DNA of 64,000 nucleotides from Ureibacillus sp. (lineage in GTDB: Bacteria; Bacillota; Bacilli; Bacillales_A; Planococcaceae), in the NCBI GenBank assembly GCA_031178355.1, contig JAPSJC010000008.1, forward strand, positions 1 to 64,000, written 5' to 3'. The notes beneath the pieces were generated by a model, which was not told the origin of the DNA, made no database searches, and saw nothing but the letters and a program-made list of their open reading frames with translations. This document shows, in pieces, positions 1 through 18,052 of the stretch (within the stretch, counting starts at the first letter, position 1; every line of letters starts with the position of its first letter). A program made the translations under genes and the position numbers.

Positions 1-1272
<1,272 letters not shown>

Positions 1273-7730: not shown

Positions 7731-7746
7731 ACATGAACTTTATATG

Positions 7747-7845
7747 AAAAATGCCTCGCTGTTGCGAGGCATCAGGAGGCATAAAATGAAACGTATTCTA
7801 TGTACGTTTTATTTCATAGGTCCCCTTTTGTGCCTCTCTGGACAA
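7747..7845 (-). promoter_or_regulatory. PyrR-dependent attenuator (pyrP-pyrB intergenic)
   Basis: Minus-strand TCCAGAGAGGC (7832-7842) followed by terminator ATGCCTCGC..GCGAGGCAT + T-tract (7751-7772). Confidence 0.85.
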
Positions 7846-7866
7846 CTTTTAAAGGTTAAAGTTATA

Positions 7867-9758: not shown

Positions 9759-9820
9759 CTAGTTTTAAGTACAATTTCAACTGATAATCAAATGTTGAAG
9801 AGGTTAATAACCATTAAAAA

Positions 9821-9980
9821 AACCTCCTAAGCATTCGCTTAAGAGGTTGTTGATAGTTGCGTTTAATTGCATGTTAAATAAACGGCTTTCCTAACAAAGG
9901 TGTATAAATATACACGTCATGTTATAGATGCTGCCTTCTAACATCTTCACAAATACCTTTTCAGCCTCTCTGGACTGCCT
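9821..9980 (-). promoter_or_regulatory. PyrR-dependent attenuator (pyrR leader)
   Basis: Minus-strand TCCAGAGAGGC (9964-9974) and terminator AACCTCTTAAGCGAATGCTTAGGAGGTTTTTTT (9821-9848). Confidence 0.85.
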
Positions 9981-10075
9981 TTAAAGGTGAATATTCAATT
10001 CTAGTACAATGTCGAATTAACACGACTATTGTTTTTCATTCATTGTAGAAAGTATAAACTTTAATTTCTTACGAG

Positions 10076-14394: not shown

Positions 14395-14665
14395 AAAAAA
14401 GCTCCTCATCCCTAAAAGGGACGAGAAGCTATGCACTCGTGGTACCACCCTAATTTGCAAAAATTACAAAAATATAATTTTTGCCTCTTAGACACTGTAA
14501 CGTCGTGTGAATACGAAATCACTTACTCTAATAAAAATTTCTGTGATTTAGCTCTAGAGTGATGTTCATTTTTGAAACTAAGTTCGAGCTTCCACCGTCC
14601 TCGAATCGCTTTACCTGTTGTCAAAAAATACTGTCTCCGTCAATGCCAAATAATGATATATAAAT
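14395..14665 (-). promoter_or_regulatory. T-box leader (Ile) of ileS
   Basis: Minus-strand T-box AGGGTGGTACCACG (14438-14451), terminator GCTTCTCGTCCC..GGGATGAGGAGC-TTTTTT (14401-14430), candidate AUC specifier in TGAACATCACTC. Confidence 0.93.
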
Positions 14666-17102: not shown

Positions 17103-17771
17103 CTATCCAACAAGTGCTGTCCCAATTCTTACAAACGTTGCACCTTCTTCAACTGCAATTTCGAAATCATTAGACATGCCCATTGATAACTCAGTGCAAG
17201 GTGCATATGGTAAATTTAATTCAACAACTTGTTGTTGTAATTGTTTTAAATCTGAAAATACTTTTCTAATGACTGATTCATCATCCGTATTTGGTGCCAT
17301 TGTCATTAAACCAACAACACGGATTTTGGAGAATTGGCTTAAAGATTGGACAAATGATAATACTTCATCCCTATCAAGTCCATGCTTGGATTGTTCACCA
17401 GAAACATTTGCTTGTACAAAACAATTAATTGTTTTTTCCGCTCTTTTCTCAATTTCTTCTGCTAAACTCAATCTGTCAAGGGAATGAAGGTAATCGATTT
17501 CATTAATAACCTGTTTTACTTTTCTTGTTTGTAGGGAGCCTATAAAGTGCCAGATGGCATTATCTTTTATTTCTTCTTTTTTAGCTAATAATCCTTCTGG
17601 TCGATTCTCACCTAGGTGAACAATTTCATTTTCAATTGCTTCAAGCGTTCTCTCAACCGATACTTGTTTCGTTACTGCAATAATTGTGACTTGTTGAGAA
17701 GTATTTCCACGCTTTTTAGCTTCATCTATTCTTTGTTGAATTTGTATCAAATTTTCACTTATTTTAGCCAT
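17103..17771 (-). CDS. ylmE: YggS family PLP-binding homeostasis protein (YlmE)
   Basis: [55 protein letters not shown]. Confidence 0.95.
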
Positions 17772-17777
17772 ATATTA

Positions 17778-18017
17778 CCCAACTTTACATCATTTTGTCC
17801 CGGTTAACCGGCCGTAAAACCAACTCGCAATAATTGGTGATAGTGATGATATTTAACAAACGTTAGTACCACTTATCTCCGAAAACGCCACGTCCTGTGC
17901 CATTGTCGATATGACCAAACATCGTGTTGGCCTCTGTGGTAACGTCTGAATGACATACATTCTGTGGACCCAACTAACAATCATTGGGGAAACCGCCAAT
18001 GATTGAAGTTTCACTTT
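17778..18017 (-). ncRNA. Candidate structured RNA / long 5' leader of ylmE (three-way junction)
   Basis: No long ORF; promoter at 18024-18052; by-eye helices: 17978-18005 (10 bp perfect hairpin), P1 17857-17872/17936-17948, P2 17913-17932, P3 17874-17911, weak hairpin 17820-17837 followed by TTTT. Confidence 0.55.
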
Positions 18018-18023
18018 ATCTTT

Positions 18024-18052
18024 ATTGTAGCAATGTGTATGGTAATTTTCAA
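18024..18052 (-). promoter_or_regulatory. Sigma-A-type promoter driving the ylmE leader/candidate RNA
   Basis: Minus strand TTGAAA - 17 nt - TACAAT. Confidence 0.75.

Follow-up and report, generated by a model that had tools for sequence, protein, structure and literature searches.

The bcr1 repeats of the Bacillus cereus group (group A, MITE-like) are dispersed, hairpin-rich elements of ~150 bp that are flanked by ATAAA and have been described as restricted to that group. For the mobile bcr elements of this group the same motif has been reported in its TTTAT reading (PMC6542083). The B. cereus repeats bcr1–bcr3 frequently belong to UTRs, and mRNAs carrying bcr3 have longer half-lives (PMC3446304). 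Bacillaceae-1 RNA (RF01690; Weinberg et al. 2010, PMC2864571), listed by Rfam as an sRNA, has two hairpins with RUCCU-type loops; the literature examined on RF01690, including PMC2864571, makes no mention of mobile-repeat behaviour. Palindromic repeats of the REP/PATE type, mobilised by Y1 (IS200/RAYT) transposases, are likewise short and hairpin-forming and contain no gene. A literature search for nested palindromic repeats or for 5S rRNA inserts in Bacillaceae returned nothing with the terms tried. Here we analysed the gap between ylmC and ylmE in a 64,000-nt stretch of a Ureibacillus sp. genome (contig JAPSJC010000008.1; this whole stretch is referred to as the window). The insert found there is, very probably, a decayed non-autonomous bcr1-like mobile composite which landed behind an already existing ylmE promoter in this lineage. 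With regard to ylmE the insertion is ordinary, and its make-up is a variation on known kinds of repeat; what is new is that Bacillaceae-1 behaves as a repeat, that a second hairpin pair (T2) is recursive in hairpin loops, and that bcr1-like elements serve as carriers.

The gap precedes the ylmE coding sequence (17103–17771, minus strand, 222 aa), of which each of the 25 genomes sampled from the genus has an orthologue. The near-consensus minus-strand promoter that had been noted there could be confirmed: TTGAAA-17-TACAAT at 18024–18052 (−35 box 18052–18047, −10 box 18029–18024) has 10 of 12 consensus matches. Promoter-like sites are not in excess over the region (24 found, 32 expected), and the window promoter is credible because all 24 congeners compared carry the same site at the same position upstream of ylmE, as TTGAAA with TACAAT or TAAAAT. 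It had been taken for the element's own promoter; being present in insert-free congeners, it is instead the old ylmE promoter. Upstream of ylmE, AAGTTGGG/AAGATGGG-type sequence is likewise kept in 24/24 congeners, and the remainder of this ancestral leader (ATGATGTAAAGTTGGG, conserved upstream of ylmE in relatives) lies at 17778–17793 (minus strand) in the window. Between promoter and pre-ylmE sequence, 22 of the 24 congeners have a short leader only, and the ~226-bp insert was observed in the window alone among the congeners compared. The −35 box and the ylmE start codon are 59–73 nt apart in these 22 genomes and 281 nt apart in the window. Empty gaps with promoter, AAGTTGGG-type sequence and short leader occur in Ureibacillus massiliensis, Lysinibacillus and others; a ylmD remnant in the gap was ruled out, ylmD being cleanly absent from it in the same close relatives. 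Two more distant congeners (G020 and G024), in which this distance is 255–257 nt, carry at the same site a different, shorter and decayed insert with bcr1-like features, namely a CTTCCATCTGTGGGGG...CCCCACCTATGG hairpin and a GCGGCATAAA end. Since no insert is present in those congeners whose ylmE is most similar, two separate insertions appear likelier, from the sequence comparison, than one old insertion. The inserts of G020 and G024 (L286, L287) lie ~200 nt before ylmE, and their position behind the −10 box suggests a recurrent insertion site.

The folds proposed in the preliminary description were largely reproduced. The compact three-way junction at 17857–17948 was recovered as described on the minus strand, with −29.6 kcal/mol and a z-score of −3.15 matched by 1 of 200 shuffles, while the plus strand of the same segment folds poorly (z −0.78). 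The 10-bp hairpin at 17978–18005 is strong (z −3.9, 0/200 shuffles), and the fold of the full 244-nt stretch is mildly unusual (z −1.82, 11/200 shuffles). A weak terminator-like hairpin suspected near 17820 was not called as a terminator. No Rfam family besides Bacillaceae-1 was credible in the gap, and a T-box resemblance of GTGGTACTAACG was dropped, as Rfam did not support it.

Compared with its own genome, the gap sequence gave 13 matches including the gap itself, pieces covering different parts of the query, and inspection of the matching places revealed a module reading as the Rfam Bacillaceae-1 consensus in reverse complement. The sequence recurs in relatives too, so that it is a dispersed repeat and not the independent, unique sRNA that had been considered. 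The insert (17794–18019, minus strand), which is absent in congeners and runs from ATAAA (18019–18015) to ACAAA (17798–17794), can be aligned over its full length with G011:C8 and G011:C12, two loci at unrelated places in another species. Both show the identical three layers, G011:C12 with an additional T2 inside the first T2. The insert is a composite of a bcr1-like element outside, a Bacillaceae-1 pair (T1) inside it and T2 in the apical loop of T1, and the three-way junction is a hairpin pair within the loop of another hairpin. Decay has blurred the insertion junction, where the right end reads ACAAA and the flank is unlike that of relatives over ~10 bp.

The outer element is ~150 bp long, with 5' ATAAAGTGAAACTTCAATCAGTGGGG...CCCCACTGATTGTTAGTTGAACCAATCGGGG...ACGGACGGTTACACCGGGATAAA. 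Of the 61 genomes sampled among relatives, 12 contain it, with 8 copies in the window's own genome and from 0 to at least 14 in relatives, and it also lies on plasmids of B. mycoides, B. cereus and B. thuringiensis. It is dispersed, non-coding and variable in copy number at bcr1/MITE-like length. After 2 of 17 listed copies had been set aside as false by eye, 15 remained; the left end carries ATAAA in 12 of these and the right end in 10, with 9 copies having the motif on either side. We name it bcr1-like on account of the TTTAT motif known from bcr repeats; the likeness is one of length, hairpin content, dispersal and ATAAA flanks, and the copies here differ from the described distribution of bcr1 in occurring in Ureibacillus/Lysinibacillus kin. 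In the window, the left end (ATAAAGTGAAACTTCAATCA...TGATTGTTAGTTG, 17970–18019, minus strand) includes the 10-bp hairpin and has 80–85% identity to other copies. A shortened right end (CACCAAT...GTTTTACGGCCGGTTAACCGGGACAAA, 17794–17840, minus strand) was recognised by alignment with the G011 copies and with own-genome copies L143, L144 and L147. Some bcr1-like copies are old and shared, since a copy seemingly located behind polA and before mutM has identical flanks in the window's genome (L096/L143) and in a second species (L194, G002); the TAA of this copy apparently provides the preceding gene's stop codon or overlaps with it. A short bcr1-like copy with ATAAA ends was also observed in a Gram-negative plasmid record (L199, Klebsiella grimontii pNY3A, CP079755.1:220060-223141), explicable by horizontal transfer or by foreign sequence in that assembly.

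The middle layer, T1 (17857–17969, plus strand), comprises outer arms at 17857–17872 and 17936–17948, previously designated P1, and a second hairpin at ~17949–17969. The RF01690 match extends over 17867–17968 on the plus strand with 16.5 bits, below the gathering cut-off of 35 bits. The assignment of the gap to no known Rfam class therefore holds in so far as no family reaches its gathering score over the gap; it missed that this sub-threshold match, on the opposite strand, is true homology, since other copies score above the cut-off. Nested homologues of the window T1 reach 43.3 bits (G011:C8, L227) and 50.6 bits (contig C76), and the T1 layer at sister loci 43–82 bits. By sequence, the window T1 is a decayed relative of Bacillaceae-1 rather than a callable member. 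It is likewise a pair of hairpins, but it has decayed and contains the entire T2 pair in its first loop; its second loop is AUUCU, and the first loop of T2 is GUCCU. In the own genome, the RF01690 model hits many of the places matched by the gap sequence, with 8 of 14 hits above the cut-off. Above cut-off, the family is present in 31/61 sampled genomes, and within the genus of the window it amounts to 0–48 copies per genome. Further T1 settings were observed: at L188 (G048:C96:54500-55200; T1 at 285–352, minus strand) a Bacillaceae-1 pair sits inside an apparent 5S rRNA gene, where Rfam called no 5S, and other T1 copies flank 5S genes (L155, L129). At L093–L097 in the own genome, Bacillaceae-1 copies lie within a larger repeat whose ends resemble inverted repeats (TCGTTTGTT...GATACAGGCG); this repeat is in turn enclosed by another one, GGGACATAAGTC...GTCCCAGCC, adding further nesting layers.

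T2 (17871–17935, plus strand) occupies the GUCCU loop of T1, and its two hairpins correspond to the former P3 (17874–17911) and P2 (17913–17932). Its loops are similar to those of Bacillaceae-1, its linkers being AAAA/AT instead of UAAGA/AAC. The window copy matches the covariance model R1 with 74 bits, being itself one of the six copies from which R1 was built. Over these six copies 11 of 17 stem pairs changed on both sides (0/500 shuffles); the covariation looked for is thus found between T2 copies, but the orthologous ylmC–ylmE gaps of 22/24 congeners, which had been proposed for this purpose, lack the element. Across the genus R1 finds 0–62 copies per genome, part of which are cross-hits on T1, and both pairs are dispersed repeats with 0 to ~60 copies per genome in this one genus. 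Sixty T2 copies with flanks were sorted into classes. In the class whose module starts with TTATC, to which the window copy belongs, the module lies between GCNAC and GTNGC arms of another T1/T2 hairpin, the middle pair of which varies in step (C–G, A–T, T–A, G–C). At least four of five closing pairs are formed in 12 of 15 copies of this class and in 0 of 45 other copies, a descriptive contrast, as the class was split off after the flanks had been viewed by eye. A general flank-pairing test on all T2 copies was negative, 3 of 39 exceeding the 95% control line. Because the class is post hoc and the general test negative, the contrast describes one class and is no proof of loop targeting by T2. 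At L226 four left arms are stacked in a row with only two right arms, hence losses or other rearrangements also occur, and on contig C54 of the own genome a T2 in opposite orientation is lodged straight in the outer element's AACC-AATC-GGGG hairpin. We tentatively put forward, while regarding it as somewhat doubtful, that Bacillaceae-1 and T2 might not be RNAs but tiny mobile DNA hairpins, which by a loop-directed mechanism use the single-stranded apical loops of hairpin repeats as insertion sites, those of their own kind among them, and so build up multi-layer nesting.

RNA structures normally tolerate G–U pairs far better than A–C mismatches, and an A–C mismatch on one strand is a G–U pair on the other. 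In T1 (45 copies) we counted 9 G–U pairs and 16 A–C mismatches in 765 pairs, in T2 (54 copies) 6 and 8 in 918. Since G–U is no commoner than A–C, neither strand looks RNA-selected, and the counts would favour a DNA-level repeat rather than an RNA under selection on a single strand, despite the strong stem covariation. Such a balance is compatible with a hairpin whose role is at the DNA level, or with a repeat whose spread outpaces its decay. It is very unlikely that Bacillaceae-1 and T2 are functional plus-strand sRNAs, antisense to the ylmE leader at this locus: stem covariation and the listing of RF01690 as an sRNA would agree with such a role, but no RNA strand is favoured, copy number ranges from 0 to ~60 among congeners, and no plus-strand promoter was called close upstream. 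On the minus strand, a riboswitch or attenuator which evolved with ylmE-sepF-ylmG-ylmH, as first suggested, would agree with the position between promoter and start codon, the good fold, and CCAATT being able to pair with either AGTTGG. However, a riboswitch would be expected to recur at the corresponding position upstream of orthologues, and nothing alike is present in 22 of 24 congeneric gaps that retain promoter and ylmE. The sequence is a dispersed repeat beside unrelated genes, and the second AGTTGGG (17784–17778), although real, is ancestral pre-ylmE sequence older than the insert. A cis-regulatory leader can hence be considered highly improbable, and the analysis yielded no support for a B6-related ligand.

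An old repeat that was exapted as a 5'UTR element tuning the stability or translation of ylmE mRNA has somewhat more in its favour, given that the insert lies in the 5'UTR with stems partly kept on the mRNA strand and that UTRs often contain the B. cereus repeats mentioned above, bcr3 with longer mRNA half-lives. The better preservation of the minus-strand fold compared with the plus strand is a counterpoint to the decayed-repeat reading, since selection on the mRNA could also produce it. Nevertheless, in the window copy a number of stem pairs are broken and the right part of the bcr1-like element is largely missing, as neutral decay predicts, and the insert is confined to one lineage; we consider exaptation unlikely.

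For the preferred origin, a decayed bcr1-like mobile composite, we propose that a bcr1-like element (~150 bp when empty) already carried the Bacillaceae-1 pair with T2 in its loop before insertion. The composite would then have inserted in this lineage at the ATAAA directly behind the ylmE −10 box and decayed afterwards. This ATAAA (18021–18025, minus strand) overlaps the −10 box and is the likely target, and several insert-free relatives have TACA-ATAAA at the corresponding position. A trans-acting transposase or recombinase presumably moved the element. An autonomous partner was not found for the repeat, and a Y1/RAYT transposase was rejected as the mover: unlike for REP/PATE-type repeats, presence of a Y1_Tnp gene does not track copy number in the genomes examined here, being absent from three of those richest in T2 (28, 33 and 54 copies). 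The old promoter would now transcribe through the repeat, giving ylmE a structured 5'UTR of ~240 nt instead of ~20–25 nt. Any effect on ylmE would be incidental, be it lower translation, altered mRNA decay or none; a mild one is possible by analogy, because bcr repeats in B. cereus are often located in UTRs and bcr3 goes along with longer mRNA half-life.

Read as a repeat, the insert drops out as a false riboswitch candidate, and an entire class of "structured intergenic" hits in Lysinibacillus-type genomes finds its explanation. This reading further suggests that RF01690, an sRNA family in Rfam, behaves as a dispersed repeat and ties it to bcr1-like elements thought confined to the B. cereus group. 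The interest of the insert lies in hairpin repeats sitting inside one another's loops; loop-directed insertion, if true, would mean that a bacterial repeat chooses its targets in an unusual way, and hairpin-in-hairpin growth would then become directly testable. Elsewhere in the window, a T-box leader before ileS (14414–14652, minus strand) and two PyrR binding sites (9814–9991 and 7744–7859, both minus strand) score above their Rfam cut-offs.
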